The position numbers and the translations under genes were made by a program. The notes under the pieces were generated by a model that was given only the letters and a program-made list of their open reading frames with translations, had not been told where the DNA came from and did not search any database. A stretch of 64,000 nt of DNA from Ruminococcus sp. Marseille-P6503 (GTDB lineage Bacteria; Bacillota; Clostridia; Oscillospirales; Ruminococcaceae), in NCBI RefSeq assembly GCF_900604945.1, contig NZ_UWPB01000002.1:496001-560000 (forward strand), read 5' to 3'. Of the stretch, positions 7,643 to 57,783 are shown piece after piece (the stretch's first letter is position 1; each line of letters starts with the position of its first letter).

Positions 7643-8821
7643 ATGTACTCGTTTTTACTTGCGCTTATTTATATTGCGTTTATCAGTCTGGGGCTTCCTG
7701 ACTCGCTTCTCGGCTCGGGGTGGCCCGTTATGCACGGTGACCTGAATGTTCCGATATCCTTTATGGGAATCGTATCTATGGTAATATCAGGGGGAACGAT
7801 TGTATCAAGTCTTTTTTCTGACAAGCTGACCAGGAAGCTCGGCACTCGTATGGTAACCGTGATCAGCGTATTTCTTACGGCGGTTGCCTTGTTCGGCTTT
7901 TCCTGCGCGGATCAGTTCTGGCAGATAATGATATTTGCCGTTCCCTATGGTCTTGGCGCCGGAGCGATCGACGCCGCGCTGAATAACTATGTCGCTCTCC
8001 ATTATACGTCAAGGCACATGAGCTGGCTGCACTGCTTCTGGGGTGTAGGAACGATAGTAAGTCCGTTTGTCATGAGCTATGCTTTAACTAATTCCTCCTG
8101 GAATAACGGATACCGTATCGTTGCGTTCATTCAGCTTGGCATAGGGCTGCTTCTTCTTGTCACTCTCCCTGTCTGGAAAGTCAACAAGCAGGATATTCAG
8201 GCTGACGCCGGAGGTATCGGATTGACCGGCGCGCTGAAGATCAGGGGAGTCCCGACTCTTTTGACCGGCTTTTTCGCATACTGCGCGGCGGAAGCAACCG
8301 CAATGTACTGGGCGAGCACCTATCTTGTTGAGGTCAAGGGCATAACAACAGAGCAGGCGGCGGGGTTTGCCTCATTGTTTTACATAGGGATAACCGCCGG
8401 CAGATTTCTCAGCGGCTTTATAATGAATAAGCTGGGCGACAGAAGGATGATTATTCTCGGTACCTGCGTTCTGTCCTGCGGGATTATTTCCCTGCTGCTT
8501 CCTGTAGCGAATCCGACTGTTTCGCTTGCCGGCTTTATAATTATCGGATTTGGCTGCGCGCCGATATATCCCTGCATTATTCATTCAACACCGAGTAATT
8601 TCGGGGCGGAAAATTCCGGAGCGATTATCGGTATCCAAATGGCGAGCGCTTATGTCGGCTCCACGTTTATCCCTCCGCTGTTCGGGCTTATCGGCAATTT
8701 GATCGGCTTTAAGATACTTCCTGTATATCTTGCGGTTTTTATTGTTTTAATGATAAGCATGACAGATCTGACATTTCGGATAACAGCCAAAAAAGACCGT
8801 AGGAAGGAGGCGGCTGAATGA
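7643..8821 (+). CDS. major facilitator superfamily transporter
   Basis: A 392-residue protein with about 12 predicted membrane helices and the loop motif SDKLTRKLGTR after TM2, typical of MFS proteins. A second copy of that loop, NKLGDRR, lies in the C-terminal half. Its stop overlaps the next start by 4 nt, so it is translationally coupled to the DUF1848 gene. Substrate unknown; MarR control suggests drug or metabolite efflux. Confidence 0.82.
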   Translation: MYSFLLALIYIAFISLGLPDSLLGSGWPVMHGDLNVPISFMGIVSMVISGGTIVSSLFSDKLTRKLGTRMVTVISVFLTAVALFGFSCADQFWQIMIFAVPYGLGAGAIDAALNNYVALHYTSRHMSWLHCFWGVGTIVSPFVMSYALTNSSWNNGYRIVAFIQLGIGLLLLVTLPVWKVNKQDIQADAGGIGLTGALKIRGVPTLLTGFFAYCAAEATAMYWASTYLVEVKGITTEQAAGFASLFYIGITAGRFLSGFIMNKLGDRRMIILGTCVLSCGIISLLLPVANPTVSLAGFIIIGFGCAPIYPCIIHSTPSNFGAENSGAIIGIQMASAYVGSTFIPPLFGLIGNLIGFKILPVYLAVFIVLMISMTDLTFRITAKKDRRKEAAE

Positions 8822-9771
8822 TTATCAATACAGGCGGAAGAACGGATACCGTACAGTATTATACCGAATGGCTGCTCAACAGATTTAAGGAGGGCTATGT
8901 TTTAACCCGCAATCCGCTTTTTCCGAACAAGGTAAATCGTTATGAGCTGGACCCCGGTAAGGTTGACTGCGTTGTGTTCTGTTCAAAAAATTACAAGCCG
9001 ATTTTATCGGGGCTGCATGAAATCACAGACCGTTTCAATACATATTTTCATTACACCATCACCGCCTACGGCAAGGATATTGAGCCGGGCGTTCCGCCGA
9101 TCGAGGAAAGTATGCATACGCTTGTCAGCCTGTCGGAGCAGGTCGGCAGAAAGAGGGTCGCATGGCGGTATGACCCTGTTTTGCTTACTGAAAAATATAC
9201 GGTTGAAACGCATCTGCAAACCTTTGAGCATATGGCTGGCGTGCTTGCGCCGTATATCGACCGCTGTATTTTCAGCTTTGTAGAAATGTATAAAAAGCTG
9301 AAAACGAATATGCCGGAGCTTATCCCGCTGACCGAGCGGGACAAGGAAAAACTTGCCGAGGGACTTGGCGGGATTGCGGAAAAATACGGTATTGCTATAC
9401 AGACCTGCGGCACAAACGGGGATTATACCCGTTACGGTATTAACAAGTCCGGCTGCATGACGCTTGACATTCTCGGAAAGGCAAACGGTATAGAATTCAA
9501 GAACCTGAAGCACAAGGGTACGCGGCAGGGCTGTCATTGTATTGAAAGCCGTGACATCGGAGCATACGATACCTGTATGAACGGCTGTAAATACTGCTAC
9601 GCAAACAAAAGTTCGCGCAGGGCGTTTGAAAATTATAAGTATCATGATCCAGCCTCTCCCCTGCTGCTCGGCGGACTTGAACCCACCGATACGGTTATGC
9701 AGGGAGCGCAAAAATCATTCAGAAAAGGTCAGAGCTATGCCGGAATTAAAAATAGAACGAATCCAGGTTAA
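8818..9771 (+). CDS. DUF1848 family protein
   Basis: A 317-residue protein of a family known mainly as a domain of unknown function. It opens with MIINTGGRTD and the LTRNP motif and ends with a cysteine cluster including CMNGCKYCYAN, resembling a radical-SAM CxxxCxxC motif but at the C-terminus. Overlaps both neighbours (4 nt with the MFS gene, 35 nt with the radical-SAM gene), so the genes form one tight operon. Biochemical role is not established. Confidence 0.85.
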   Translation: MIINTGGRTDTVQYYTEWLLNRFKEGYVLTRNPLFPNKVNRYELDPGKVDCVVFCSKNYKPILSGLHEITDRFNTYFHYTITAYGKDIEPGVPPIEESMHTLVSLSEQVGRKRVAWRYDPVLLTEKYTVETHLQTFEHMAGVLAPYIDRCIFSFVEMYKKLKTNMPELIPLTERDKEKLAEGLGGIAEKYGIAIQTCGTNGDYTRYGINKSGCMTLDILGKANGIEFKNLKHKGTRQGCHCIESRDIGAYDTCMNGCKYCYANKSSRRAFENYKYHDPASPLLLGGLEPTDTVMQGAQKSFRKGQSYAGIKNRTNPG

Positions 9772-10636
9772 AAGTATTTTATCAAAATCAAACCTGCCTG
9801 TCTGCGAATATTCGGTTAATCCGTACGTCGGCTGCACTCACGCCTGCAAATACTGCTATGCTTCCTTTATGAAGCGATTTACAGGACACAGCGAGGAATG
9901 GGGAACGTTTCTTGACGTTAAGTATTGGAATGAGATAAAAAATCCGCGGAAGTATAACGGCAAGGAGCTGTTTATCGGCTCGGTCACAGATCCGTACAAT
10001 CCGCAGGAAGAAGAATACGGACGGACGAGGGCTTTGCTTGAGCAGTTGAAGGGCAGCGGCGCGAAGCTCAGTATTGCCACAAAATCGGATCTGATACTGC
10101 GTGATCTGGAGCTGATCGGCTCATTTCCCGACGCCCGTGTGTCGTGGTCGGTCAATACGCTGGACGAGAGCTTCAAAGACGATATGGATAAGGCGGTATC
10201 CATAGAACGCAGACTTAACGCAATGAAAGAATTTCATAGGGCGGGCGTACGCACTACCTGTTTTATTTCTCCTATATTTCCCGTAATAACCGATGTGAAG
10301 GCTATCATTGAACGGGCAAAGGAGCACTGCAATCTGATTTGGCTGGAAAATCTGAATCTGAGGGGCGGCTATAAGGCGGTAATTATGGATTATATCGCCG
10401 ACAAATATCCGCGGCTTTTACCTCTTTATCAGACTGTTTACAACCGGAATGACCGCGGCTACTGGCAAGCGCTCGACGGAGAGCTGAAGGAGTACGCCTC
10501 CCGAATCGGTCTTGACTATGTAACCAATGACGACAGTATGACAAGACCGTTTGACGCGCCGCCTGTTATCGTCAATTACTTCTATCATTCAGAAATTAAA
10601 AAATCAGCAGCAAGGGGCGGTGTGAAAAATGCCTGA
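9737..10636 (+). CDS. SPL-like radical SAM protein
   Basis: About 299 residues. The radical-SAM motif is GCTHACKYCYASF at about residues 31-43, binding a 4Fe-4S cluster and SAM. The remaining (beta/alpha) core resembles the Rv2578c/SplB-like group that acts on nucleic acids. The longer frame from 9626 is rejected because ATG 9737 has a GAAAAGG site and the recognisable N-terminus MPELKIERIQ. Coupled to mutM by an 8-nt overlap, which suggests a DNA-repair or nucleic-acid context. Confidence 0.82.
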   Translation: MPELKIERIQVKSILSKSNLPVCEYSVNPYVGCTHACKYCYASFMKRFTGHSEEWGTFLDVKYWNEIKNPRKYNGKELFIGSVTDPYNPQEEEYGRTRALLEQLKGSGAKLSIATKSDLILRDLELIGSFPDARVSWSVNTLDESFKDDMDKAVSIERRLNAMKEFHRAGVRTTCFISPIFPVITDVKAIIERAKEHCNLIWLENLNLRGGYKAVIMDYIADKYPRLLPLYQTVYNRNDRGYWQALDGELKEYASRIGLDYVTNDDSMTRPFDAPPVIVNYFYHSEIKKSAARGGVKNA

Positions 10637-11453
10637 ATTACCGGAGGTTGAAACAGTAAGACGGGTGCTTGAGCCTCAGCTGAAAGGACTTGAGATCGTC
10701 AGCATAACGGCAGACAAGCCGGAGGTTATAGCTTATCCGACTGCCGAAGAATTCTGCAGACAGCTTACAGGACAGACTTTTTTGTCGATGTCGCGCAGAG
10801 GAAAGTTTTTGATCGTCAATATGAACAGCGGGGACAGAGCGATACTTCATCTCAGAATGACGGGCTGTCTGCTTGTTACGCCGCCTGATCTTTCTGCTGA
10901 AAAGCATACGCACGTTATCTTTCATTTGAGCAACGGCAATGAACTGCGCTTTTCCGACACACGCCGCTTCGGCCGCTTGTGGCTTGTCAAGAACGGTGAA
11001 ACGGATATATACAGCGGAATTGATAAATTGGGCGCCGAGCCCTTTGACGCCCAATTAAATGCCGGATATCTGAAAGCGCGCTTCGGGAAGCGCAGACGAG
11101 CGATAAAGGAGTGTCTGCTCGACCAAAGCGTGATTGCGGGTATAGGAAATATCTATTCCGATGAGATTCTGTATTCGGCAGGGATTTGTCCGGCACGTCC
11201 GGCAAACAGCCTGAAAGAGGAGGAATGGGAACGGCTTGCCGCCGCTATCCCCCGTCGGCTTGAATATTTTATTGAAAAGAACAGTATAACAGCAGAGAAA
11301 TACCTTGAGGGCAAGGGAAAGGATTATCGCAATACCCCTTTTCTGCAGGTATACGGTCACGCTGACGGGTCTTGTCCGAGCTGCGGCGGAACGCTTGTCC
11401 GCGCTGTGATCGGCGGCAGGAGCAGCGTATACTGTCCGAATTGTCAGAGGTGA
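10629..11453 (+). CDS. mutM: formamidopyrimidine-DNA glycosylase
   Basis: Bifunctional glycosylase/AP lyase that removes 8-oxoguanine and related lesions. N-terminal MPELPEVETVRR gives the catalytic Pro2 and Glu3; the H2TH region includes QSVIAGIGNIYSDE; the C-terminal zinc finger is CPSCGG...CPNCQ. Length 274 is normal for the family. Last gene of the MFS/DUF1848/radical-SAM operon. Confidence 0.95.
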   Translation: MPELPEVETVRRVLEPQLKGLEIVSITADKPEVIAYPTAEEFCRQLTGQTFLSMSRRGKFLIVNMNSGDRAILHLRMTGCLLVTPPDLSAEKHTHVIFHLSNGNELRFSDTRRFGRLWLVKNGETDIYSGIDKLGAEPFDAQLNAGYLKARFGKRRRAIKECLLDQSVIAGIGNIYSDEILYSAGICPARPANSLKEEEWERLAAAIPRRLEYFIEKNSITAEKYLEGKGKDYRNTPFLQVYGHADGSCPSCGGTLVRAVIGGRSSVYCPNCQR

Positions 11454-12351
11454 CGGACTTCGCCGCCAAAACATCAGAAACATAATATATGTAATATTAT
11501 AATGAATAAGATAAATTGGGCATAGTATTGATATATTGAGACATAATAATACAAATTATAAAAAAGTTAAATTGTTTTATTTCAGATATAACTTTAGAGC
11601 AAATTAATTTTTTATTGGTTTATTTTTTTGTTCATATATGTACACTGAATCCGATTTAATAATCAAGTACGATGTATGATGAGCATAATAAAATTTATTT
11701 TATGACTTATTAATAATTTTAATTTCTATATTAGTTGAAAAAATATGAAAAAAATTATTATATTTTTATCGACTGTTGTTTCGTTTTCTTATTTTTCATT
11801 TTCCAAAAATACTGAACACGCATTATCTCCAAATCGGTATTGGAAAATGTGAAAAGCGAGTACGGAACGGATAAAGGTAAGGTAGAGATAGATGTCCTGT
11901 TGGTTCTAAATGGAAAGTTCAATTCTTAGTTTAAGAGATCGTAAAGTCGATTTATACAACAAATGCTATTGAGTTTTTATTATCAGATGGTGACCACAGC
12001 AAAATGTGTATTTAGAATTGCTGACAGTCTGTTCAAAATGCTGTAACTAGTGATGAGACATATCACCAAAAGTGGGGCGTATGTCATCAGGGCAGTAGTC
12101 AAATCTATGCTTATCTTATTATTTTGTGCAATTACAGAACTGGAATAACGTTTTTTGTTTTGACAACAGAACTTATTTTCATTAATTGTAGATAAGAGCG
12201 CCGGGAGTACCGACGGTCTGGTTATAGGTTTTTCTATTTTATTTTTGTACGCTATTTGGTGATTACACAGATTTTGAAAATGAATTATAAACACGATTTT
12301 TATGTTTACTGGAGGAATTGCGTACTATTTAATAAGAAAGTGTACAGTTAT
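11454..12351. other. AT-rich junction without a convincing gene
   Basis: Base composition drops sharply right after mutM. A 35-codon ORF at 11745-11852 (begins MKKIIIFLSTVVSF, signal-peptide-like) lacks a ribosome site. A minus-strand frame at 11983-12294 has no recognisable content. I read the stretch as the decayed edge of the inserted island; no terminator for the ABC gene ending at 12352 is obvious. Confidence 0.4.
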
Positions 12352-14130
12352 TTAAATTTTATAGTATTGCGCCTGTGCATTAAACATTTTATAGTATATG
12401 CTATCAGATCTTTTTATAAGTTCTTCGTGCGTTCCGATTTCTTTTATGGTTTTTTCAGAAAAAACAAAAATTTTATCACAAAATTGACAACTTGAAAGCC
12501 TATGTGATATATATAATGTTGTTTTGTTTTGAGTCAATTTATTAAAATGTGCATAAACTTCATTTTCGGCAACTGGGTCAAGGGCTGCAGTTGGCTCATC
12601 TAATATTACCATTGGTGAATTTTTATGTAAAGCTCTTGCTATTGCAATTTTTTGTTGTTCGCCACCAGATGGTTCTATTCCATTTTCATCAAATTGTTTG
12701 TAAATAGTTGTATTTTCACCAAATAAAAGAGCATCAATCTTTTGGCGTAAGCCAACTTTGTTAATTACTTCGGTTATATCGTCGTAATTGTTTTGAGCAA
12801 TGTTTTCTTTTATTGAAAAAGCAAAAAGTTTAAAATCCTGAAAAACGACAGAGAATAAACTAATATATTCTTGATAATCGTATTCATTTATATTAACTCC
12901 ATCAAGTAAAATATCTCCGCTGCTTGGTTTATATAAACCGCATAGTAATTTAATAAATGTAGTTTTACCGGCTCCATTTAACCCTACGATTGATATTTTG
13001 TCTCTAGCGTAAATTTTGATTGATATATTTTTTAATACATATAACTCAGTGTTAGGATATTTGAAACTTACATTTTTAAATTCAATTTCATGATTTGGTA
13101 TATTTTTTATTTTTCTTGATCCATTATGATTTACAGATGGTATACTCATATAGTTAATAAACTCCGAAATATATCCTGTTTTTTTTATTATTTCTTGCAA
13201 ATCCATTATTATTAATTGACTTGACGAAAATAATGTGGATCCAGCATTTATTGCTTTAATAAAAAGTCCTATAGTAAGTTGTTCAGTTATTACAAGCCAG
13301 CCTAAATATAAATAAATAATACTATTTTTTAAAGAATTTGAGATTGTTGTTTTTATATTATATTTTAAAAAAATTGAACTTTGCTTTTCGATTATTGAAA
13401 AGCGTTCATTTATAATTTTAGATCCTTTTTCCAACATCATTTCTTCGGCACTATACAAACGTATGTCTTTCCCATTTTCAAAGCATATCATTTGATATAA
13501 AAAATATGTAAAAATGCGAGCGGTTTTTGACATATCTTCATATGCGGATGCTTCTGTAATGTTAATTTTATAATTATAATAGCTGGTTATTATTAAAAGC
13601 ATACTTATAATTAACAATATTAACGGAGCTTTTGATGCAATAACTGATATGGCAATAAAAGTTTTTGTTATATTGGATATAATGTTAAAAAAATGCTGAC
13701 TTATACCATGCATACCTCCGGAATACTCGAAAATTCCTTGTTTAGCCTTTTCTATTTGATCTAATATCATTTTATTTTCAGTATCTTGATAATCAATTTC
13801 CATTGATTTTTTACTTATCATTTCTAAAAATTTATTGTCAAAATAAGTATTATATTTTTCTAATTGTAAAGTCAATATATTACTGATTAAATAAGATAAT
13901 CCTTCGATTGCTGTAAATATTATTGCTTTTACAAAAATAATTTTTATTGAAACATCTTTTATTAAATCATCAATAATCAGAGGTAGGAAATTTAATGATA
14001 TAAACAGTAAAAATATATCAAATATTATTTTTAATAACCATAAATAAAAATAGGATCTACGATTATTCCATATAATAAAAAATATATATTTTAAAGTATG
14101 CATTACTTGAAATATTTTTGTTTTATTCAT
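12352..14130 (-). CDS. ABC exporter half-transporter, TMD-NBD (second of pair)
   Basis: A 592-residue fusion of six membrane helices (about 1-310) with an ATPase domain. Walker A GLNGAGKTTF, signature SGGEQQK, Walker B MVILDEPTAALD, H-loop SHRLSS. No N-terminal C39 peptidase domain. It overlaps the preceding ABC gene by 8 nt and the two share the C-terminal motif MF..QAQYY, so they are paralogues and probably form a heterodimer exporting the island's product. Very AT-rich. Last gene of the minus-strand operon. Confidence 0.9.
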   Translation of the reverse strand: MNKTKIFQVMHTLKYIFFIIWNNRRSYFYLWLLKIIFDIFLLFISLNFLPLIIDDLIKDVSIKIIFVKAIIFTAIEGLSYLISNILTLQLEKYNTYFDNKFLEMISKKSMEIDYQDTENKMILDQIEKAKQGIFEYSGGMHGISQHFFNIISNITKTFIAISVIASKAPLILLIISMLLIITSYYNYKINITEASAYEDMSKTARIFTYFLYQMICFENGKDIRLYSAEEMMLEKGSKIINERFSIIEKQSSIFLKYNIKTTISNSLKNSIIYLYLGWLVITEQLTIGLFIKAINAGSTLFSSSQLIIMDLQEIIKKTGYISEFINYMSIPSVNHNGSRKIKNIPNHEIEFKNVSFKYPNTELYVLKNISIKIYARDKISIVGLNGAGKTTFIKLLCGLYKPSSGDILLDGVNINEYDYQEYISLFSVVFQDFKLFAFSIKENIAQNNYDDITEVINKVGLRQKIDALLFGENTTIYKQFDENGIEPSGGEQQKIAIARALHKNSPMVILDEPTAALDPVAENEVYAHFNKLTQNKTTLYISHRLSSCQFCDKIFVFSEKTIKEIGTHEELIKRSDSIYYKMFNAQAQYYKI

Positions 14131-15997
14131 TTGTTAATGTCTCCTCTGCATAAGAATTATTGTCATTATTATAGTATTGAGCTTGAAGCATAAACATATT
14201 ATAATATTGTCCTTTTAAGCTCATAAGTTCTTGATGAGAACCATATTCTGTAATCATACCATCATTAAATAAAGCAATTTTATTGCAAAACTGTATTGAA
14301 GATAGCCGGTGAGAAATATATATAACACTTTTATTTTCTGTTAAACTATTAAAATTAGTATACAGTTTATGTTCGGCAATAGGATCAAGGGCAGATGTAG
14401 GTTCATCAAGGATAATAATTGGTGAATCTTTATATAATGCACGAGCAAGTGCAACCTTTTGACATTCGCCACCAGATAATATTACACCATCTTTGTGTAC
14501 TACGTTAAGCATTTCTGAAGTAATTCCTTTTTCTAAGCTGTCAACTTTTTCCTTTAAGCCGGATTTCACTATCTTATCGTATGCTTTTTGCGAGTCTGTA
14601 TTTTCTGGCGTGGACATAGATATATTTTCTGACAATGGGAAAGCGAATATCTCTATGTTTTGAAAAACAGGAGAAAATAGCTTATAATATTCTTTGCGTT
14701 TATATTTTTTTATATTTATACCATTTATGAGTATTTCCCCTTTAGTAACATCATAAAGTCGTACAAGAAGTTTAACAAATGTTGTTTTTCCAGCACCGTT
14801 AAGTCCTACAATGGCAAGTTTTTCTTTTGAATTTATTGTAATATTAATATTCTTTAATGTAAATACTTTTTGTCCGGTATATTTAAAGCTAACATTTTTA
14901 AATTCAATAATATATTCATCAGAATTAGGAATTGGTAAGCAACTATCCTCATTATCATCATCGTTTATTTCAATATATGAACGAAAGTCATTCATTTCCA
15001 TTGAACGTTGCTTAAATGCTCCAATATTATTAAATATTTGCTTTACAGATGATGAAAAGACGCCAATTGTACCTATATAAAGCGTAAAATTGCTAATTGA
15101 CAGATCATTGTATATTACACAATAAATTAGATAACTATAAACAATTATATTTTGAATTATTGACATTATAGAAACAAAAATAGAATTAGAAATCCAAATA
15201 TTTTTGCTATTACATACCTTCTTATATTTAAATTTGAGAATAGAACGATATTTATCCAATAGCCAATTCTTCATATTAAACAGACGTATATCCTTGGCAT
15301 AAGAAAAATCCTGTGTTATATGCATTAAATAATTCTCTTTTCGCCATACGGTCGCAAGTTTATCCCATGTTTCAATTTTATCCTTCTTAGCGGCATATAT
15401 ATAATATAAATACTGCAGAAAAGAGATGAAAATTATTCCAACTATAATCCATAAATTAAAATAAGCCATTACAGAAGCGGTTATAATTAATAAAATAATA
15501 TTTGTGAGAAAGAAAAAAGTTGCACTCATCATTCCGATTATGCCTGTATTATTGCTTATAGTCGCTTGTTCGGCTTTTTCCATTTTGTCAAGCATTTCTG
15601 GATTTTCAAGCATTTCGTAATTAATATTTAAGGACTTTTTTATTTCTTCTTGGAGCATTTTTTGACGAACATAGGAAAAACCTAAATTCATTTTGGTTGA
15701 TCCAATAACATTGAAGATAGATAAAGTAAGTTCTAAAACGAAAATAATTGTTAACAAAACAAGTAATGAGTTAATATTCTTTGATTCAGTTGAAGATTGA
15801 TATGTTATAATATCTATAATCAGCTTACTAAAAAAACTCCACATATACGTTGCCGAAGCTGTTGTAATAGAGCAAATAATAACAATATAAAATACGGATT
15901 TTTTATACTGTCTGATTTTGCTTAAAGTATAAATAATATTATTAACTATTCCATGCGCTTTGGAACAGTTTAAATTAGTTTTTTTCTTAAATAACAT
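14123..15997 (-). CDS. ABC exporter half-transporter, TMD-NBD (first of pair)
   Basis: A 624-residue TMD-NBD protein. Walker A GLNGAGKTTF, signature LSGGECQKVALARAL, Walker B IIILDEPTSALD, catalytic His in SHRLSS. Both ATPase sites of the pair look competent. The ribosome site AAGGAATGATAAG lies right after the carrier-protein stop. It lacks a leader-cleaving peptidase domain, so precursor processing would fall to the subtilase of the same operon. Confidence 0.9.
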   Translation of the reverse strand: MLFKKKTNLNCSKAHGIVNNIIYTLSKIRQYKKSVFYIVIICSITTASATYMWSFFSKLIIDIITYQSSTESKNINSLLVLLTIIFVLELTLSIFNVIGSTKMNLGFSYVRQKMLQEEIKKSLNINYEMLENPEMLDKMEKAEQATISNNTGIIGMMSATFFFLTNIILLIITASVMAYFNLWIIVGIIFISFLQYLYYIYAAKKDKIETWDKLATVWRKENYLMHITQDFSYAKDIRLFNMKNWLLDKYRSILKFKYKKVCNSKNIWISNSIFVSIMSIIQNIIVYSYLIYCVIYNDLSISNFTLYIGTIGVFSSSVKQIFNNIGAFKQRSMEMNDFRSYIEINDDDNEDSCLPIPNSDEYIIEFKNVSFKYTGQKVFTLKNINITINSKEKLAIVGLNGAGKTTFVKLLVRLYDVTKGEILINGINIKKYKRKEYYKLFSPVFQNIEIFAFPLSENISMSTPENTDSQKAYDKIVKSGLKEKVDSLEKGITSEMLNVVHKDGVILSGGECQKVALARALYKDSPIIILDEPTSALDPIAEHKLYTNFNSLTENKSVIYISHRLSSIQFCNKIALFNDGMITEYGSHQELMSLKGQYYNMFMLQAQYYNNDNNSYAEETLTNE

Positions 15998-16001
15998 CTT
16001 A

Positions 16002-16229
16002 TCATTCCTTATTTTTAGATTGTAAATGCTTCTCTACAATAAAAACAATTGAGTCAATATTCAAAAAGTAATCTATACGAAAGTATTCATCTTCAATTGT
16101 TATTAAAAATTCTTGCTCTAATGAAACAATTAATCTTATAAAATTTATGGAGTCTAAGTTAACTATATTTCCATTATTAGATGTTGCAATTCCTATTTGC
16201 GAAAGCAATTCAACAATTTTTTCTTTCAT
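16002..16229 (-). CDS. acyl/peptidyl carrier protein
   Basis: A 75-residue four-helix carrier protein. The phosphopantetheine site is LDSINF with Ser27, followed by the acidic recognition helix (LIVSLEQEF). It is not followed by fatty-acid synthesis genes, nor is any adenylating or holo-ACP synthase gene present nearby, so it must be activated and loaded by enzymes encoded elsewhere or not recognised here. It begins 2 nt after the subtilase gene; its ribosome site (GGAGGATTAATT) lies in that gene's end. In this context it probably carries an acyl or aminoacyl group for the BtrH-like protein. Confidence 0.78.
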   Translation of the reverse strand: MKEKIVELLSQIGIATSNNGNIVNLDSINFIRLIVSLEQEFLITIEDEYFRIDYFLNIDSIVFIVEKHLQSKNKE

Positions 16230-16231
16230 AA

Positions 16232-18043
16232 TTAATCCTCCGTTGCAGCAAGACTATCTAAAATTGTTTGAGTTAAGAACATCAAATCGTGTTCATTACC
16301 TAAAATGTAAATTGATTGATCAAAGTTTTGTTTTAATTTGTTAATATAGTTTTTTAGAGTTATTTCAGATGAGGGCCTTGTAATTAAATTGCAAAAATCG
16401 GTTAATGATTTTTCCATAGGGAAAACTACAATTGCGACAACTCGACTGTTAAAGCTTTCGGCATAAAGACATGTCCTTTTTATATAGTCAATATCATCAT
16501 TTAAATTTACTAAGAGTATGGTGATGTCAGGCAACACAGACATAAAGAAATTATTGCTTTCTAAAGATAAATTTGAAGTTAAGTAATAATCATAAGGGAT
16601 AAGAGATGATTGTCCCCCTACTATTATTAAATCTGCATTAGAACTTTCGATATTATGAATAGCTTGGTTTATTGCTTGAATAAATTCATAGTTATAAATA
16701 TCAACAGAGGAATTATATCCATATGCAAATTGATAATCAAATCCAAATAAACAGGAAGTAGGTTCAGAGCCTATTTGGCCAACTTTGTAACCAATTTCAA
16801 TAAACTTTTTTCTTAGTTGAAGTTGCAAAGTAAATTTTCCTTGTTTTGATGAGGTGCCAAATACACCAACAATTGGTTTATTGCTAACAAATAGTTTTCC
16901 TCTATTTTCTATAGGAACTGCTTCCTTACCTACAGTTGGAAAAAATACTTGGTAATTATTATAAATAAGATTGCCGAAGTCATCATAAAAAGTACGGTGT
17001 GGTCTGTCGAAGCAATAAATTTTCTTGTTATGTTCTAATGCTTTATTTATATACTCTTTTAATAAATCCTTTTTCAGTAATTTGCTTATAATGTTAACAT
17101 GACCTAAAATTAGCATATCGAAATCTTCTTCCCAATTTATATTTTCGATATTTTCTACATATTTAGTACCCTCATAACTAAAATTATCAATTAGGTCAGC
17201 TAAAGGTTTACCTACATTTCCACAATATTTACTATCATAAAAATGCGAAATTTCAAATTTTAACATTTCCGAAAAACGTAAAACAGAGTGCATCTCTTTA
17301 TTCATTGGAAATGTAACTGCTTTTTTCACACCATCTAAAAAATTTTTTTTATTGAAATAGCCAGATCTTTTTTCATCTACTAATTGACTTTTACTAGCGA
17401 GAATATCAAAAAGGTCTTTTTTATTTTTTATTGAATAAGGCAAATTGCAGATGTTATTATAAATTAATGCGGAAACATAAGCGGCAGCATAACTGGTACC
17501 TGAAACAATCATCTGTTTATTATCAATCCATTGTACTCTATAAAAATTCTTAGGCATAGTAATGTCTATAATATTGCTATTAGAAATAATTAAATTAGAT
17601 ATATTTTCATTAATATCTACGCCTATAACCTGAGTCATACAAGCTGGATACGACATAAAACCTTCATTATTAAAAGGACTTATAATTAATGTACCGTTTT
17701 TAGTTATTTCAGTTATTATATTGTTCAATTTGTCAAGATTATCAGCGCATTTCAAGCCTGAACTTATGTTTATAATTTTACATTCAATATAATTATAAAC
17801 AAATTCTAAAGCGTCAATATAATAGTTAAAATCAGTATCTAAGCTATTAAATGCCTTAATGATAAATATTTTGCTTTTAGGTGCATTTTGTTTTATTATA
17901 TCATATATTGCTGTTCCATGACCAAATGTATCGGAGACATCGTTTCCTTTATTCAAACAATTGTATCTTCCCTCAATATTTTCAATACATTTGGGAGCTA
18001 TTCCTGTATCTATAATAACAATATCTGACTTTATTTTTGACAT
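16232..18043 (-). CDS. S8 subtilase fused to DUF1611-like P-loop domain
   Basis: A 603-residue cytoplasmic-looking protein without signal peptide. Residues 1-240 are a compact subtilase: Asp12 (DTG), His42 (GHGT), oxyanion Asn near 125, Ser184 (GTSYAAA). Residues 250-600 resemble DUF1611: a Rossmann-like part, Walker A GTSSKQGKFT (396-405) and GGQSSL (476-481). Subtilases in peptide clusters often remove leaders, so the likely substrate is the 58-residue peptide encoded divergently at 18532. DUF1611 proteins include P-loop acyltransferase-like members, so the C-terminal half may modify or activate rather than cleave. First gene of the minus-strand operon, with a strong AGGAGGAAT site. Confidence 0.8.
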   Translation of the reverse strand: MSKIKSDIVIIDTGIAPKCIENIEGRYNCLNKGNDVSDTFGHGTAIYDIIKQNAPKSKIFIIKAFNSLDTDFNYYIDALEFVYNYIECKIINISSGLKCADNLDKLNNIITEITKNGTLIISPFNNEGFMSYPACMTQVIGVDINENISNLIISNSNIIDITMPKNFYRVQWIDNKQMIVSGTSYAAAYVSALIYNNICNLPYSIKNKKDLFDILASKSQLVDEKRSGYFNKKNFLDGVKKAVTFPMNKEMHSVLRFSEMLKFEISHFYDSKYCGNVGKPLADLIDNFSYEGTKYVENIENINWEEDFDMLILGHVNIISKLLKKDLLKEYINKALEHNKKIYCFDRPHRTFYDDFGNLIYNNYQVFFPTVGKEAVPIENRGKLFVSNKPIVGVFGTSSKQGKFTLQLQLRKKFIEIGYKVGQIGSEPTSCLFGFDYQFAYGYNSSVDIYNYEFIQAINQAIHNIESSNADLIIVGGQSSLIPYDYYLTSNLSLESNNFFMSVLPDITILLVNLNDDIDYIKRTCLYAESFNSRVVAIVVFPMEKSLTDFCNLITRPSSEITLKNYINKLKQNFDQSIYILGNEHDLMFLTQTILDSLAATED

Positions 18044-18075
18044 TATGATTCCTCCTATCTTTTATAATTACTTTT

Positions 18076-18104
18076 ATTATACATCAGTTTTTTGATAAAG
18101 TCAA
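18076..18104 (-). promoter_or_regulatory. promoter of subtilase-ACP-ABC operon
   Basis: On the minus strand TTGACT (18104-18099), 17-nt spacer, TATAAT (18081-18076), about 35 nt before the subtilase start. Confidence 0.7.
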
Positions 18105-18133
18105 CAATTTTAGACATTTATCGCAAAAAACTA

Positions 18134-18161
18134 TTGACTTTATTATTTTTTGTAGTATAAT
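18134..18161 (+). promoter_or_regulatory. promoter of precursor-peptide operon
   Basis: TTGACT 18134-18139, 16-nt spacer, TATAAT 18156-18161. It is back to back with the subtilase promoter and shares the word TTGACTTTAT. It implies a leader of about 360 nt before the peptide gene. Confidence 0.65.
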
Positions 18162-18169
18162 ATAAATAT

Positions 18170-18531
18170 AGGTTAATCTATTTAATCACATGAAATTTTA
18201 CAAAAAAATCTATAGAGAAACATGATTTATAGATAAATTTAATTATTGTTAGTGAAAACATTGAAAGAGCTTTAGCCATGGGTTTAAAATGCGTGTTGAT
18301 ATACTCAGAAACAATGTATCGACATAGCAGATCAATTTGAAAAAATGTTGAAAAAATGAACGCTGTAGTGAGAGCATGGATGACATATACATAAGACTTT
18401 TGTTCTAAGGATAATTATGTGATTTCAGTCATTGCTTTTATTATAGTCTATACATGAGTATGAGTAAACCATACAGATTAGCTATGGTTTATTCTACTAT
18501 AAATAATTATTGTCACAGGAGGTGAAAATAA
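18170..18531 (+). promoter_or_regulatory. long untranslated leader of precursor peptide with hairpin
   Basis: No convincing gene. A 9-bp perfect inverted repeat, TAAACCATA (18465-18473) and TATGGTTTA (18483-18491), lies about 40 nt before the peptide start. A 20-codon frame at 18278-18340 lacks a ribosome site. The length suggests a regulatory leader or a decayed gene. Confidence 0.4.
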
Positions 18532-18708
18532 ATGAATAAAGTTAAACTTGTGAAAATCCGTAAGTCAGCAAGTGAAAAGCCTACACTTTATAGTACAGAG
18601 AGTAATAAGCAGCAGCAGCCTTCTAAATTTAATACTTTTAGCAATGGTTGGTATGTACCATCAAACGATGTGGCCAGATTTGCTCGCGGCTCAGGAACAG
18701 CTTTCTAA
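18532..18708 (+). CDS. small peptide, probable RiPP precursor
   Basis: A 58-codon ORF with an excellent AGGAGGTGA site. The first half is basic and polar (MNKVKLVKIRKSASEK, a QQQ run at 27-29), leader-like. The C-terminal third is aromatic and Gly/Ser-rich (FSNGWYVPSN at 36-45, then FARGSGTAF as the last nine residues). It has no Cys, no double-Gly site and no signal peptide, so it is not a standard lantibiotic, sactipeptide or class II bacteriocin. Its place between two divergent promoters of a modification/export locus, and the hairpin right after its stop, are typical of precursor genes. Function is inferred from context. Confidence 0.72.
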   Translation: MNKVKLVKIRKSASEKPTLYSTESNKQQQPSKFNTFSNGWYVPSNDVARFARGSGTAF

Positions 18709-18720
18709 AAAGTTGGTAGC

Positions 18721-18757
18721 AAATAACGGTCATGACTATGTGTCATGACCGTTATTT
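18721..18757 (+). terminator. strong hairpin after peptide gene (partial terminator or stabiliser)
   Basis: Perfect 16-bp stem, AAATAACGGTCATGAC at 18721-18736 and its complement at 18742-18757, with a 5-nt loop and an AT-rich tail (AATATTATTA) rather than a run of T. It separates the peptide from the next gene, which suggests high peptide and lower enzyme expression from one promoter. Confidence 0.7.
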
Positions 18758-18788
18758 AATATTATTACAAAAAGGTGGTGTATTAAAA

Positions 18789-20318
18789 ATGGGAAGTGAA
18801 AAATTGCCTATAAATACAAGTCCGTTTATAAGGACATATCCAGAATATTTGTTTATTGATACGATAATAAATAACGAATTTACAAATAGTGACTGTATTG
18901 CTAGTATATATATTAAAGATTATGATAAAAGTAAATGGGATTTCTATATTCGAAAGTCAGGTCTTTGTGTCGAAAATAATACTGTTAAGTTTTATAGAAG
19001 AAGTTTTAACATTTCCTCCGCAAGAGCTTTTTTTAGAAAAGTTAATAATGTAAATGATACAGCGGTGTTTCATATAGAACATCAGCAGTATACTAATCGC
19101 TGGGATTGCTTATTATTTTTTGTCGATCAAAATAATTCCAAAGATAAATTAAATTATTATCCTTCTATGAGTTTTGTATTTGGAAGATATTGCAGCGGAG
19201 AAATGTTCGCTATAACAAATGGGGAATATCATAAGATTGATGGTAATGATAGTTATAAATTAATAACGTGGATAAAACTTTGCATTAGTGAAGATGATAT
19301 AGCAGTTTATGGTTCATTTGATGGGATATTATGGAGACTAATTTGTAAATGTGGTAATTTGGGGATATATCCTAGAAACAATACGAAAATTGGCTGTGTT
19401 TCTTGTTTGCTTAATAATCAATATTATAAATGGTTATGCAATAATTTTATTCAAATTAAATTTAATCCAAATGATGAGTGTAGTATGGATTACACAGATT
19501 TTATTAGAAAGGATTATAAAAATTATTATATAAATCCTTTTCTTAAATGTTCTTATGATAATTATAATACATTGAAAAAGTGGTATAATGGATTGTGGAA
19601 TTATATAGTAGCAGGAATACAGCAAAAACGATATATGGAAATTAAATTGAATGAATACTATATCCCAGGATTACAAGCATATCAGAAAATTAATTACTTT
19701 CACGAAAGTTTAATTTACGGATATAATGATGAACATAACAGCGTGTATATTTTATCTATTTATCAAGGTAAACCAAAGGCTTTAGAAGTATCGTATGAAT
19801 ATATACAAAAGGCATGGCTAAAGTCTTCAATAGTTACTTTTGAGTTTTGTCCCAACATGGATAATTATAACTTGGATATTATACATATTTATGATAGAAT
19901 TTGTGATTATTTAAGCAGCCGTAATAGTTCTGAAGATCATCAATATATTTCAGAAATAAATAACGGAGTTTTTGGTTTGAATATTTATAAAGCAATTCAA
20001 AGTTGCAGTAAAATGAAATCAGTATTTTTAAGCGACGTTAGAGCGGCATTTTTAATAAAAGAACATAAGTTGTGCATGATTACTAGATTTCGCTATTTAA
20101 AAGAGTTAGGTTTTATTCCTCAAAAGGAATGGAAGCTTATTAGAAGCTATTTAAGTAAGATAGTTGATATATCAGAACGCATTTTACTGTTAGTTATGAA
20201 AAACAGTACAGTAGAAAGTCTTGATGTTCAGAGCCGTATATGGTCAGCTTTAAATAATTTATATTTATATGAAAAAAGTTGCTATAGTTTGTTTAAAGCA
20301 ATTTTTGAGGTTATTTAA
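18789..20318 (+). CDS. BtrH-like acyltransferase with lectin-like N-terminal domain
   Basis: About 509 residues from ATG 18789 (AAGGTGGTG site; the longer frame from 18732 runs through the hairpin and is rejected). Residues about 20-225 look like a DUF1349/concanavalin-type jelly roll (e.g. AVYGSFDGILWRLI). Residues about 245-509 resemble the butirosin BtrH N-terminal (C39-peptidase-like) proteins of Firmicutes, with NYFHESLIYGYNDE at about 302-315 and a C-terminal helical half. BtrH moves an acyl group from a carrier protein to an amine, and this island has a lone carrier protein, so acylation of the peptide or a product is a reasonable inference. Domain calls are from motif memory. Confidence 0.6.
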   Translation: MGSEKLPINTSPFIRTYPEYLFIDTIINNEFTNSDCIASIYIKDYDKSKWDFYIRKSGLCVENNTVKFYRRSFNISSARAFFRKVNNVNDTAVFHIEHQQYTNRWDCLLFFVDQNNSKDKLNYYPSMSFVFGRYCSGEMFAITNGEYHKIDGNDSYKLITWIKLCISEDDIAVYGSFDGILWRLICKCGNLGIYPRNNTKIGCVSCLLNNQYYKWLCNNFIQIKFNPNDECSMDYTDFIRKDYKNYYINPFLKCSYDNYNTLKKWYNGLWNYIVAGIQQKRYMEIKLNEYYIPGLQAYQKINYFHESLIYGYNDEHNSVYILSIYQGKPKALEVSYEYIQKAWLKSSIVTFEFCPNMDNYNLDIIHIYDRICDYLSSRNSSEDHQYISEINNGVFGLNIYKAIQSCSKMKSVFLSDVRAAFLIKEHKLCMITRFRYLKELGFIPQKEWKLIRSYLSKIVDISERILLLVMKNSTVESLDVQSRIWSALNNLYLYEKSCYSLFKAIFEVI

Positions 20319-20464
20319 TAAACGTTTTTGGCTATGATTGTATTAAGCGTTAAGAAACGTTTTACCAAAATTACAGACATAAAACAGTATGAATACATGA
20401 CTTCTGTCATTCTCATGCTTAATTGTTTGCAAACAAAGTTATTATATAAGGAATGGTTTGTTGG

Positions 20465-21777
20465 TTAGCATATACGAAGTGGAATTGCAAGTATCATGTG
20501 GTATTTGCAACACTTATATGAATCACACAAAGGCAATTGAGATGTGATAGCACAGTTTTCTTTTGCACTAGATATGTATCCGATTACCCGAAAGAACTCG
20601 TTATAGTCCTCTTTAGTGCAACTTTTAATAAAGATACGGCAGTAACACTCATCGTTTTTGTCGACGATATAGATACGCTCCACAAAGGATTGTATCAGCG
20701 TTACCAGCGCATCCGGCTGTGCGTCCTTTGCGTATTTACCGAAGGACAACAGCCTTTCTTTTGTTTCTTCAATATTTCGGACAGTATACATCTGATTACG
20801 CTTGCTGTCCTCTAACTTTTCAGGCAGAGAACACTAACCTCACGCAACTTGTCAACAGGTCTTTTACATTTTCCTGAATAAAGCGTATCAGGTTGTCGCT
20901 TGCATTACGCATATTTTTTACCTGATTGGAAAATGCCGTTTTATGCTGCGCTTTCTTTTTTCAATTATGTTAATTTCTGATTATTTTAAAAATTACTAGA
21001 AATATCTGAAGTTTTGTAAAGTATTAACTGACTTTATCAGAATGATTAGATGATTGCTTTACTACAAATTTATCAAGCAGTACGCCGTCAACAGCTTGGA
21101 AAGTACCTTTGTTTTCGCGGTAGTTGGCGCAGACACACTTAAATTCTGGCTTGTCATTTGTCCAGCGGTTAGATTCGGAAACTACTCTGAGCCGCTTACC
21201 GCAGAAAAGACAGTAAATAAGTCCTGAGAGCAAAGCATTGGTCTTGTGATGCGGTCTGTTGTACTTCCTGGCTATATCATCTAATATGTTTTGTTTATCT
21301 GTCCATATGTTGACTCGGAATAAAGCCCTCGTGTCTGCCGACAAAAAATCCATTCAGAAACAGGTTTTGCGGACATAATCTGCACAAATTCCAGTGAAAT
21401 AGAGGTACTATCTACATTTTCAAATCTCTCTTGGTCTGTCTTGTTGTACGCAGATAAACTGTGCTGAACGCCAAAAGCGGAAAGCTTCTCGCATAACCTT
21501 TGCCGTTTTCGTAAAAATAGTTATACACATTTTAATCAGCAACACAGTAGATGGGTTTTTGGGGAAAAGCTTTGTGGCTGAAGCATTGACTTTAGAGCCT
21601 GCTTTGGTTCGGTAGCCGAGTTTGTTCAATAAGGTCGGGCTGAAAACCCGTTAAATTTATCCTTTGAGCCTTTATCAAGTGCAGGATTTTCATCTTCGGG
21701 CATTTTCTCTCCGCCGAGCTTTCCTTCGTGATATGCAGTGATGAGAGCATATACCTTGTCAATGATATTACTTTCAA
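20465..21777 (-). pseudogene. decayed large serine recombinase
   Basis: Three separate minus-strand frames add up to pieces of one recombinase: about 21777-21420 (NKLGYRTKAGSKVN, recombinase-domain region), 21353-21024 (zinc-ribbon piece ALLSGLIYCLFCGKRL and VDGVLLDKFVVKQ) and 20791-20465 (C-terminal coiled/DUF4368-like piece, LLSFGKYAKDAQPDALVTLIQSF). Frameshifts and stops separate them, and the catalytic N-terminus is missing. It marks an old mobile element at the right edge of the AT-rich island. Confidence 0.75.
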
Positions 21778-51936: not shown

Positions 51937-52791
51937 TCAGTCAGCCTCCTTTGTTAATAAATATTTGATTTTCAAGCTTCCGTTATTTTATCCTACCTGC
52001 CGCGTGCGGCGCTCACAAGAACGTTATGCGGCGCTTTAACGAAATTTTATGTACCGTCAAACAGAAAAAGCCCGCACATACTTAACCACAACTAAAGGCG
52101 GAAGCTTTTCCGTCTGAAGCGTGCCTAAATATGTACGAGCCTTATGCTCTTTGAAATATGTTTATGTAATTGGCGTTTGATATTTAATTGTCATTTTAAA
52201 CAGAACCCTGTCATTCTATTTTTATTTTAACATGGAATGTGCGATTGTCAAGATAGCGTCAGAAATTTAATAACCTTAAAGTTAAAATACTCATAATACT
52301 ATATAAACTAAATAGAAAAACTTATTTTACGTTTTTTAAATCAAATAGTAAAAGGGAAAATTATAACCATTTGTATCCTAACTCCTCTTAATATGTGAGA
52401 CCAAAAGTTAAATATATTTACGCCATAAGATTAAAAAGATTAAGGAAAAACCAGTTGGTGTTATTAGTTTTTGCGTTATCTACAAAATTCGACATGAAAT
52501 CAGTGCATAATGCACAAATAATTTTGCCTAATTTTGTCTTTTTATCAATTGACAAAATTTATTTAATATGCTAAGCAATAAACAGTTAAATGGACTTTAT
52601 AAAATATTTTATTGTATAATAATTATTACGCACAGTTGAAAGCTTTTATAATCTATACGAATCAGAAACGAAAAATATTAAGGCGATGCTTTAAGCGAAA
52701 AAGGACTAAATATCAAACACATTTTCTACAAGTTAAATGTGTAAGATAAATATTTTTATGATTGATAAAATCAATCGGAAAGGACATTTAA
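51937..52791. other. AT-rich divergent region before cargo genes
   Basis: No gene seen in 850 nt. A possible promoter for the secreted-protein gene is TGGACT 52591-52596, 18-nt spacer, TATAAT 52615-52620. GC content falls from here to 58.8 kb, marking the cargo. Confidence 0.45.
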
Positions 52792-53235
52792 ATGAAAAAA
52801 ACGTTTAAAAGGCTGATTGCCATTGTCATGGCAACGACTACTATGGCTGTTGGTATGGGAAGTATGAACGCAAGCGCAATTACTTACAAAGGCACAACAA
52901 ATAAAACTACCACTGGTTGTACAGGAGGTACAGTTAATATTCGTTCAAGAGTATATACTGATTACTATCAGCCTGCTGGTGGAGTAAATGTTTATTATTA
53001 TGGCGTTGTATCAGATATCTCGACAGGTTCTTCATTAAAAACATATTTCAATATTACTGGAACATTAACAACTTCAAATTCATCTACTCCAATTTCAAAT
53101 TCCGGTACGGCCAATAGTGTTAAGGCATATAAGGATGCATCTTATTCCGGAGCATACTCTTATTGTAATTCAAAGACTACAACCTCATCGTCTGCTTATG
53201 GCACTTCTTCGCAAGAGTGTAATCGTGCTTTCTAA
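52792..53235 (+). CDS. small secreted Ser/Thr-rich protein
   Basis: A 147-residue protein with a clear Sec signal (residues 1-29, ending SMNASA). The mature part, about 118 residues, is rich in Ser, Thr, Tyr and Gly, beta-strand-like, with three Cys (TGCTGG, SYCNSK, QECNRAF). Ribosome site GGAAAGGAC. Ended by its own terminator and followed by two lipoproteins and an ABC transporter, an order seen for secreted bacteriocins with immunity/export genes. I recognise no family; a bacteriocin or surface-protein role is only inference. Confidence 0.65.
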   Translation: MKKTFKRLIAIVMATTTMAVGMGSMNASAITYKGTTNKTTTGCTGGTVNIRSRVYTDYYQPAGGVNVYYYGVVSDISTGSSLKTYFNITGTLTTSNSSTPISNSGTANSVKAYKDASYSGAYSYCNSKTTTSSSAYGTSSQECNRAF

Positions 53236-53246
53236 TTAATATTATC

Positions 53247-53293
53247 AAAGGGTTCAGCTTATTATTCATATATCATAGTTGAATCCTTTTTGT
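53247..53293 (+). terminator. terminator after secreted protein
   Basis: AAAGGGTTCA (53247-53256) pairs with TGAATCCTTT (53280-53289), T-rich tail. Confidence 0.65.
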
Positions 53294-53329
53294 TTTCTAA
53301 TTATTGTAAATTTTTGGGGTTGGTTAAAA

Positions 53330-54337
53330 ATGCGTATAAGTAAAATTATATTAATTGGTATGATATTAACAGTGATGTTAACAGGTTGCTTTAATAAGAA
53401 AAATAGTGAGATTAACAATAATGAATCGTTATTAAATAGTACAATTGATTATAGTTCATTTGAAAATACTACAGAATTAAATAAAGATTTCACATTTAAT
53501 ACATCATTAAATGCTTTTTATAATAATAGTTCATATACTCCACTTGAGAACAAAATAGAAATTAATAAAAATGAACTAGTAAACATAAAGGTTTTGACTA
53601 ATGTAACTACGGATAAAAGTATGTATACAGAATATGCACCCATGCGTATGTGGATTTTAGCAGATGGAAAGCCAATTGAATTTTGTATAAACAATAATGA
53701 TAAATATAAAATATTTAACGATATATTTGTGGAAGTTGCCAATGATAATTTGACAGATGTAAGCTTTAATTGTTCATATGATGTAAATATAATAACAATA
53801 GTGTGTGTTTATTTCCCCGAGGATATTCCTGAACGTGGTTTAGGATCATATAGCGGAGAAATTTCGTATACAATATTAAATAGCGCACATTCTATAGATG
53901 ATAATTTGAAAAATTCAAATTCAAATTCCAATTTCTATATTAATATACCTAAAAAAGAAGAATATTATGGAATAGATATAGGTGAATTAACTGTAAAAGA
54001 TAATGACAATAGGGCGCTAGAAACTCATTTTTATAATGACGTACTTCTTACTAATGAAAATAAAAATTTGTATGTTAAGTTTAACAGTGGAGATAAAAAG
54101 GAAATTTCATATTATATTTTAGTTTTATGTGATGGAATGTTAGTGGATATTTTTGATGGAAACTACTCTTATGAGGTGAATTGTTTAAACGGAAGCAGAA
54201 CATATCAATATTGTATTCCAAATAACTATATCCCAGATTCAGGCTTGCATACATTTCAAGCAATTGCTATACCAGCAGATAAAAGTGAAGATTTAACTTC
54301 ATATTCAACGCCTAAGATCAGAGTTCAAATCTCTTAA
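53330..54337 (+). CDS. lipoprotein of unknown function
   Basis: About 335 residues. Lipobox LTGC near residue 20 after a short hydrophobic signal; the mature part is Asn/Ser-rich and beta-strand-like with two similar halves (each with a run such as VNIKVLTNVT or LYVKFNSGDKKEISYYILVL). ATG 53330 chosen because it begins the lipoprotein signal; the 53279 frame adds a non-signal extension through the terminator. Possibly immunity or adhesion. Confidence 0.65.
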   Translation: MRISKIILIGMILTVMLTGCFNKKNSEINNNESLLNSTIDYSSFENTTELNKDFTFNTSLNAFYNNSSYTPLENKIEINKNELVNIKVLTNVTTDKSMYTEYAPMRMWILADGKPIEFCINNNDKYKIFNDIFVEVANDNLTDVSFNCSYDVNIITIVCVYFPEDIPERGLGSYSGEISYTILNSAHSIDDNLKNSNSNSNFYINIPKKEEYYGIDIGELTVKDNDNRALETHFYNDVLLTNENKNLYVKFNSGDKKEISYYILVLCDGMLVDIFDGNYSYEVNCLNGSRTYQYCIPNNYIPDSGLHTFQAIAIPADKSEDLTSYSTPKIRVQIS

Positions 54338-54572
54338 ATTAAAGGAGTCAAATACAAATAAATATCCAATGGAGGTTCGTTAAGCTGTTTTTCGACAGAA
54401 TATTTACAGAATGTTCACAAGCATTTTAGGGACTGGATTGTATTATAAATGAAAAGATTTTCATATAACGAATAAGGATATTTAAGAAATAGCTGACGGA
54501 AAAGAGTTGAATAAGGGTCTAATATAAGCAAATTGCTGGCTGACCTCAATATAAACCGAAGGAGTTAATACT
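54338..54572. other. intergenic spacer, nothing recognised
   Basis: AT-rich 235-nt spacer without a gene; a TATTATAAAT stretch near 54444 could be a -10 region. Confidence 0.3.
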
Positions 54573-55682: not shown

Positions 55683-55684
55683 GC

Positions 55685-56908: not shown

Positions 56909-57783
56909 AGCTTGTATTTAATAACATTTCAAAGAAATATAAAACCAAAATTGCGCTTGATGATTTTAACATTACACTGACAGACGGTATACAGGCGCTT
57001 CTTGGACCGAACGGTGCGGGAAAAAGTACTCTTATGAATATTCTTGCAGGATTAACCAAGCCAAGCAGCGGAAATATCACGCTTGATAATGAAGATACTG
57101 TAAAAATGGGAGCAAAATTTCGCGGCATATTAGGATATTTACCTCAGAATCCGGGCTTTTATCCGTCATTCACAGGATATGATCTAATGAAATATTTCTC
57201 TGTTTTAAAAGGCATTGCAGGTCCGGAAAGCAGAATAGATGAGCTTCTTGAATTTGTAAATCTTTCGTCAGACTCCAACAGAAAATACGGTGAATATTCA
57301 GGAGGAATGAAACGTCGTCTAGGCATTGCCGTTTCTCTTCTAAATGATCCGAAGGTGCTTATTCTTGACGAACCTACAGCCGGTCTTGATCCTAAAGAGC
57401 GCATGAGGTTCAGAAATATATTGAGCCGAATCGGAAGAAATAAAATAATTATAATAGCAACGCATATAGTTTCAGATGTTGAAACGATTGCGGATAATGT
57501 AATACTTTTGAAGTCGGGCAAGCTTATACTTTCCGGAAGCACTTCGCAGGTTGAAGAGCATATAGTAGGAAAGGTATGGAATAAACCTTCAGATATAAAT
57601 GAAGCTGAAGAATATGTTCTGTTAAATTCCAATGCAAACATAATCAAGCACGGAGAAGAAGTAAGCCTGCACATTGTGTCTGACGTAAAACCATTTGAAA
57701 ATGCTGTTGCAGCGCAGCCAACTCTTGAAGATGTATATATGTACTTTTTTGACGAAGGCGGTATGGCTGGTGAGAAAAAATGA
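56905..57783 (+). CDS. ABC transporter ATP-binding protein
   Basis: A 292-residue ATPase: Walker A GPNGAGKST, Q-loop YLPQ, signature YSGGMKRRLG, Walker B VLILDEPTAGLD, H-loop ATHIVSD, and the typical 80-residue C-terminal extension of drug/peptide-resistance ABC-2 pumps (BcrA-like). Coupled by 4-nt overlaps to the permease on each side. Confidence 0.92.
   Translation: MKLVFNNISKKYKTKIALDDFNITLTDGIQALLGPNGAGKSTLMNILAGLTKPSSGNITLDNEDTVKMGAKFRGILGYLPQNPGFYPSFTGYDLMKYFSVLKGIAGPESRIDELLEFVNLSSDSNRKYGEYSGGMKRRLGIAVSLLNDPKVLILDEPTAGLDPKERMRFRNILSRIGRNKIIIIATHIVSDVETIADNVILLKSGKLILSGSTSQVEEHIVGKVWNKPSDINEAEEYVLLNSNANIIKHGEEVSLHIVSDVKPFENAVAAQPTLEDVYMYFFDEGGMAGEKK

Follow-up and report, generated by a model that had tools for sequence, protein, structure and literature searches.

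Our analysis of a 64,000-nucleotide stretch of the Ruminococcus sp. Marseille-P6503 genome (contig NZ_UWPB01000002.1, positions 496,001 to 560,000; hereafter the window, whose own numbering is used throughout) identifies an AT-rich island at 12.0-20.3 kb in which a compact set of genes accompanies a cysteine-free peptide of 58 residues. We favor, with moderate confidence, the interpretation that this locus is a cassette for a ribosomally synthesized and post-translationally modified peptide (RiPP), in which an acyl group borne on an acyl carrier protein (ACP) is put on the 58-mer, the leader is cut off, and the product is exported. Processing of the 58-mer is quite likely, whereas its acylation is a more tentative proposal, as are the acyl donor and the site of attachment. 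The cleavage point and export are likewise predicted: from what is known of these protein families, the subtilase would serve as leader protease, and the ATP-binding cassette (ABC) pair would act as exporter.

In the proposed pathway, the 58-mer would be the precursor: its lysine-rich leader would run to the vicinity of LYSTES, and some 30 residues without any Cys would form the core. An acyl group would be loaded onto the ACP, and a BtrH/CcbD-like protein, possibly together with a TIGR04066 P-loop domain, would pass it on to a peptide amine, either at the core N-terminus or on a lysine. The subtilase half of a fusion protein would then cleave off the leader, and export of the product would fall to the two-part ABC transporter. 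The ancestor of the cassette would also have had a radical S-adenosylmethionine (SAM) maturase acting on a Cys-containing core. The genes are as follows.

12352..14130, minus strand: ABC transporter half 1, membrane and ATPase domains (ABC_tran 7.5e-30; leave-one-out cassette profile 3e-151)
14123..15997, minus strand: ABC transporter half 2, without a C39 peptidase domain (ABC_tran 2.8e-27; leave-one-out 1e-158)
16002..16229, minus strand: ACP, 75 residues, serine in a DSI motif (cispentacin ACP model 2.9e-8; leave-one-out 1e-13)
16232..18043, minus strand: subtilase (S8) fused to a TIGR04066/DUF1611 P-loop domain, 603 residues (NCBIfam, Pfam, AlphaFold model, intact triad)
18532..18708, plus strand: candidate precursor peptide, 58 residues, no Cys, leader rich in Lys and containing LYSTES (suitably spaced AGGAGG; leader profile)
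18789..20318, plus strand: BtrH/CcbD-like protein, about 509 residues, with an extra, perhaps lectin-like stretch in its first half (leave-one-out E 1e-28; HxxLIYGY; weak fold match to CcbD with its peptidyl carrier protein)

The peptide gene, carrier protein, subtilase/P-loop fusion, and ABC pair had been named in a preliminary description of the island, and all are present and intact. GC content is 23-31% across the island, compared to 44-50% in the left flank and 40-42% in the right. The 58-residue open reading frame (ORF) and the BtrH-like gene lie on the plus strand, while the fusion, the ACP, and the two ABC transporters form a minus-strand operon. None of the five large genes is truncated, and their catalytic motifs are intact, among them the Walker A/B and signature motifs of both ABC proteins.

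The fusion joins two domains that each point to peptide maturation. Residues 8-198 match the S8 protease model QhpE (3.5e-20) at 72 bits, below its curated cut-off of 165, and residues 240-598 match the peptide-maturation model TIGR04066 (1.1e-21) at 77.2 bits, below its cut-off of 200; the protein also scores over the Pfam cut-off for DUF1611. It has the Asp-His-Ser triad of S8 proteases (D12/H42/S184) and a P-loop, GTSSKQGK. An AlphaFold model with a predicted local distance difference test score (pLDDT) of 78 agrees: one half resembles TM0796, a DUF1611 protein (2g0t, 7.5e-12), and the other resembles intracellular subtilisin (4e-10). The fold-match lists also include lanthipeptide leader-processing subtilases (9ekq, 4zoq).

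A leave-one-out profile built from relatives recovers the window fusion at E 1e-172. A single-sequence search of genome contigs returned nothing; an alignment search of them found eight loci, and searches of viral contigs and plasmids gave no cassette relatives. Within the order, 13 of the 394 genomes carry the fusion, the window's own among them, and it is also present in other Clostridia, Lutispora thermophila, Paenibacillus phocaensis, metagenome-assembled genomes, and one congener, so that the cassette loci span Clostridia and Paenibacillus. We annotated 24 independent loci (the window, L031, L032, L034, L043-L048, L068, L070-L081, and L090) with profiles for five protein types; L069 repeats L044 and was not counted, and L033, which is decayed, was left out. 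Contig ends cut L034 and L074, L080 and L081 have shortened radical-SAM and fusion frames, and L046 has mobile-element genes upstream.

Beside the fusion, ABC genes are present in all 24 loci, a radical-SAM gene in 21, an ACP in 20, a BtrH-like gene in 18, and a short Lys-rich peptide in 20. The association of fusion, ACP, and BtrH-like protein thus recurs in other genomes, which was the check proposed from the island alone. The window contains the set by which we defined the fusion cassette: fusion, Ser-bearing ACP, ABC pair, BtrH-like protein, and short Lys-rich precursor. It is without two frequent features of the family, namely a SPASM radical-SAM maturase, which 21 of 24 loci have, and core cysteines, which occur in 19 of 24. 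We do not take the maturase as strictly defining, because three loci are without the enzyme. None of the NCBIfam models tested was satisfied by the fusion family with its true ACP and BtrH-like protein, and the literature searched held no description of the family, which is not proof of its being unreported.

The relatives show further variation. In one genome (G551), three contigs each hold a different fusion cassette (L069, L070, L071). L032, whose cassette has no BtrH-like gene, encodes a transglutaminase-like protein at 11193-12026 (Pfam 8.8e-7). Beside the cassette of the congener (L090, 13770-16715) lie agr-type genes, named by eye as peptide, AgrB-like protein, kinase, and regulator, and kinase-regulator pairs also occur near the L048 and L078 cassettes.

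The candidate precursor and the absent maturase

When a leader profile built from the relatives, with the window excluded, was run against the 2207 frames of the window, the 58-mer ranked third and was the best short ORF; the two frames above it are nested starts within one ORF of >450 codons. Its N-terminus resembles the short cassette ORFs of the family, which begin Lys-rich and typically carry an LY-like motif. The L. thermophila precursor, MKKKLLKPKKSSSKITLYKEKGIWCC, exists as three tandem copies that differ only at the end (IWCC, VHCC, VVCC); other relatives have MKKLVKPMKEKMNFALYNENNCWC and MRKLVKPKHRKAKVSLYSVNAESQCCSIW, and the congener has MKKVLKKKIKNSDNAIHYFSGENSTSTPQGTHPWYGQLTCTVGCSS. 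Several loci have tandem copies, and family precursors are only 23-50 residues long. No peptide gene was found in L046, and the L076 peptide is a weaker call. Neither the 58-mer nor any of six further cassette precursors had a meaningful NCBIfam match, and therefore no link to named Cys-rich peptide families emerged. A conserved short peptide had been expected at such loci, with a constant C-terminal motif; the peptide is there, but its constant part is the N-terminal leader.

The precursors of all loci that have one contain one to five cysteines, with the sole exception of the window 58-mer, which contains none. A corresponding difference is seen in the maturase. The relatives' enzymes are SPASM proteins that score best, at 163-210 bits, with TIGR04463 or Clo7bot, below every curated cut-off. 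In the window, neither a cassette-type radical SAM nor a remnant of one was found, and the window genome contains no maturase over the cut-off for CcpM (TIGR04068). The radical-SAM gene at 9626-10636 was considered as a maturase and rejected, since it encodes a TIGR04470 'mobile pair' protein.

Radical SAM is also missing from L044 and L046, and the scatter of the three loci on the fusion tree favors repeated loss. The L044 peptide retains two cysteines, and among the loci seen, only the window lacks both maturase and cysteines. Because nearly all relatives have a maturase and Cys cores, the absence here is a loss and not a class definition, and the disappearance of enzyme and cysteines together makes a coherent co-loss. 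The preliminary description was thus correct that the island has neither cassette-type radical SAM nor C39 domain, although the first of these absences does not set the locus apart as a class.

Loss of the maturase could also mean that a radical-SAM peptide cassette is in decay, with the peptide free to drift and the rest on its way out. We consider this unlikely. The absence of an enzyme present in 21 of 24 loci, the long branch on which the fusion sits, and recombinase debris adjoining the island would fit such a history, but the five large genes have kept their full length and catalytic motifs, the peptide ORF retains a strong ribosome site, its leader, and a striking downstream hairpin, and the window holds no radical-SAM remnant.

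Carrier protein and acyl transfer

The window ACP has the 4'-phosphopantetheine-site serine (Ser27, in DSI), and all aligned cassette ACPs share this serine, in contrast to the RDL or TDL found at the position in canonical TIGR04069 proteins. One relative, L048, carries an additional acyl ligase and a second ACP.

The BtrH-like ORF was listed as 18732-20318 on the plus strand (528 residues), a start that falls within the terminator-like hairpin described below. The ATG at 18789 is more likely, because AAAGGTGG lies upstream and the relatives' N-terminus aligns there. The protein has no Pfam match and hence is below the BtrH_N (PF14399) gathering score; its relation to BtrH is seen through homology to the relatives, of which L046 passes the BtrH_N cut-off at 33.1 bits. 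HxxLIYGY is conserved across the family, with its histidine kept, and the top Foldseek row for the model is CcbD with its carrier protein. Outside these cassettes, BtrH-like proteins adjoin or are fused to carrier proteins (L083, L086, L085); in L085 (1-1336) the BtrH-like domain follows a nonribosomal peptide synthetase-type carrier domain (DLGGDSI). The BtrH part of the earlier assignment therefore holds through the relatives, but the lectin-like half was not confirmed, as the putative concanavalin/DUF1349-like stretch has no Pfam match and a model pLDDT <50. Residues 412-528 gave mostly helical bundles in fold comparison and were not interpreted. An AziU2-U3 fold row was set aside (Z 9.7, root-mean-square deviation 13.7), and searching PDB sequences with a profile of the BtrH-like proteins gave nothing credible. 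BtrH-like proteins in L072 (4125-5915), L079 (15925-17739), and L073 (16663-18432) have extra domains, either a weak polysaccharide-deacetylase-like N-terminus or a weak F5/8-like C-terminus.

Several observations weigh against the acylated-RiPP interpretation. The BtrH-like family has no conserved cysteine, that is, no counterpart of the CcbD nucleophile; in the window protein, Cys 222/225 (528-residue ORF numbering) lie near the CcbD Cys place, but the alignment there is unsure. The structural model is poor (pLDDT 49), and the CcbD match is weak (E 0.1). The island codes for neither an acyl donor nor an activating ligase. The leader-profile match of the 58-mer is modest by itself (E 0.78), with position and start site supplying the remaining support. 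Finally, the window fusion sits on a long branch whose position the fusion tree does not settle. Since the family has no conserved Cys, the BtrH-like protein may not catalyze CcbD-style transfer, or any transfer; with the His conserved and the Cys not, any acyl transfer that does occur may proceed directly or be carried out by the P-loop domain.

In the latter case, the TIGR04066/DUF1611 domain would itself transfer an acyl group such as acetyl, and the BtrH-like protein would merely bind or position the carrier or peptide. DgcN, a DUF1611 protein, is a D-glutamate N-acetyltransferase, the fusion matches the fold of TM0796, and a DUF1611 domain is present in every cassette, which is not true of the BtrH-like protein with its unconserved Cys. 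However, the ACP-related protein of canonical TIGR04066 systems is without the Ser, which means that in those systems the P-loop domain acts with no acyl-ACP, and we regard this division of labor as improbable.

We retain transfer from the ACP as the working interpretation of the cassette. More doubtful, in our view, is the broader proposal that it represents a RiPP type in which an enzyme of a Cys-less BtrH/CcbD-like family joins an ACP-borne fatty or amino acyl group to a Cys-free peptide, with a subtilase-P-loop fusion and no radical-SAM step, while the same carrier step stands beside a radical-SAM step in a wide unnamed family.

Two further explanations fare poorly. A radical-SAM enzyme encoded elsewhere might modify non-Cys residues of the 58-mer in trans. 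In the genome of L044, four further cassette-type enzymes lie elsewhere and could act on the L044 peptide in this way, but the only similar protein in the window genome is a SCIFF maturase (704.8 bits) with its own substrate family, and the 58-mer has no Cys; we judge this very improbable. Least credible is that the set makes a small non-peptide molecule beside an incidental ORF: BtrH, CcbD, and the cispentacin ACP are small-molecule pathway proteins, but in 20 of the 24 loci the cassette includes a gene for a peptide with the leader type of the 58-mer, in several as tandem copies, and TIGR04066 proteins and QhpE-like subtilases are peptide-maturation proteins.

Regulatory signals and surroundings

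A 490-base gap separates the divergent transcription units and contains two promoter-like sites 30 bases apart. The regulatory features are as follows.

18076..18161, unstranded: divergent promoter-like pair, 18104-18076 (minus) and 18134-18161 (plus), each 11/12 sigma-70-like by consensus only
18095-18143: imperfect inverted repeat, overlapped by the promoter-like pair
18721..18757, plus strand: hairpin with U-rich tail, attenuator/terminator-like, between the 58-residue gene and the BtrH-like gene

The back-to-back promoters of the preliminary description are thus matched by two sites, but sites of this kind are no commoner than in shuffles. Between the plus-strand site and the peptide gene lies an untranslated leader of about 360 bases (18162-18531) with no Rfam match. 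The hairpin has 16 perfect pairs, and its surrounding stretch folds at -26.9 kcal/mol (z -7.4).

To the right of the island, a large serine recombinase fragment (XisF-like, 21024-21353) and other debris nearby at 20.5-21.8 kb suggest a decayed mobile element. To the left, radical-SAM 'mobile pair' genes (8818-10636; protein B 455.5 bits, above the TIGR04470 cut-off) immediately precede a copy of mutM. Another mutM, 67% identical to it, is present in the genome, and 15 congener genomes gave no mutM match. A second AT-rich stretch lies at 52000-57000 (GC 27-33%).

Comparison with known systems

The island had been described as a peptide-maturation locus of no named class. The conserved gene set with its peptide supports maturation, but the set is a divergent branch of a known one, the CLI_3235/CcpM Cys-rich peptide system (TIGR04065, TIGR04066, TIGR04068, TIGR04069), found for example at the SacP23 locus of Paenibacillus polymyxa (PMC10731318) and in Roseburia intestinalis (PMC4573289). 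Common to both are a TIGR04066 domain, a subtilase, an ACP-related protein, an ABC exporter, and a short precursor starting with MKK. In the window, a single protein combines S8 and TIGR04066, the ACP retains its Ser, the ABC transporter has two halves, and a BtrH-like protein is added; TIGR04066 is below cut-off, the CcpM maturase is absent, and the precursor is not Cys-rich.

Other systems are more distant. The Clo7bot, TIGR04463, and PapB SPASM maturase systems are approached by the relatives' sub-cut-off maturases, but the window is without such an enzyme. Having neither Cys nor cassette maturase, the 58-mer also fails as a ranthipeptide or sactipeptide, in which radical-SAM enzymes form thioether links from Cys. 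QhpE, the protease in quinohemoprotein amine dehydrogenase maturation, is likewise a subtilisin-like protease of a peptide-maturation pathway, but its partner genes differ from those of the window. BtrH, from the butirosin pathway, and CcbD/LmbD, from lincosamide pathways, act together with a carrier protein, share the conserved His region, and have a weak fold match to the window protein. CcbD passes a carrier-bound acyl group to an amine via a Cys-His-Glu triad (PMC12945683), whereas the window family has no conserved catalytic Cys and its partner is a ribosomal peptide. The earlier prediction of acylation, leader removal, and secretion stands for processing, which is likely, and more tentatively for acylation.

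Taken together, these comparisons place the window as a distinct variant of an unnamed fusion family, itself a divergent branch of the CLI_3235/CcpM system. In described systems, ACP-like and TIGR04066 proteins are found together with a radical-SAM enzyme. The present locus offers a natural experiment: it has lost that enzyme along with the cysteines but retains intact carrier machinery, and the carrier chemistry can therefore be tested alone.

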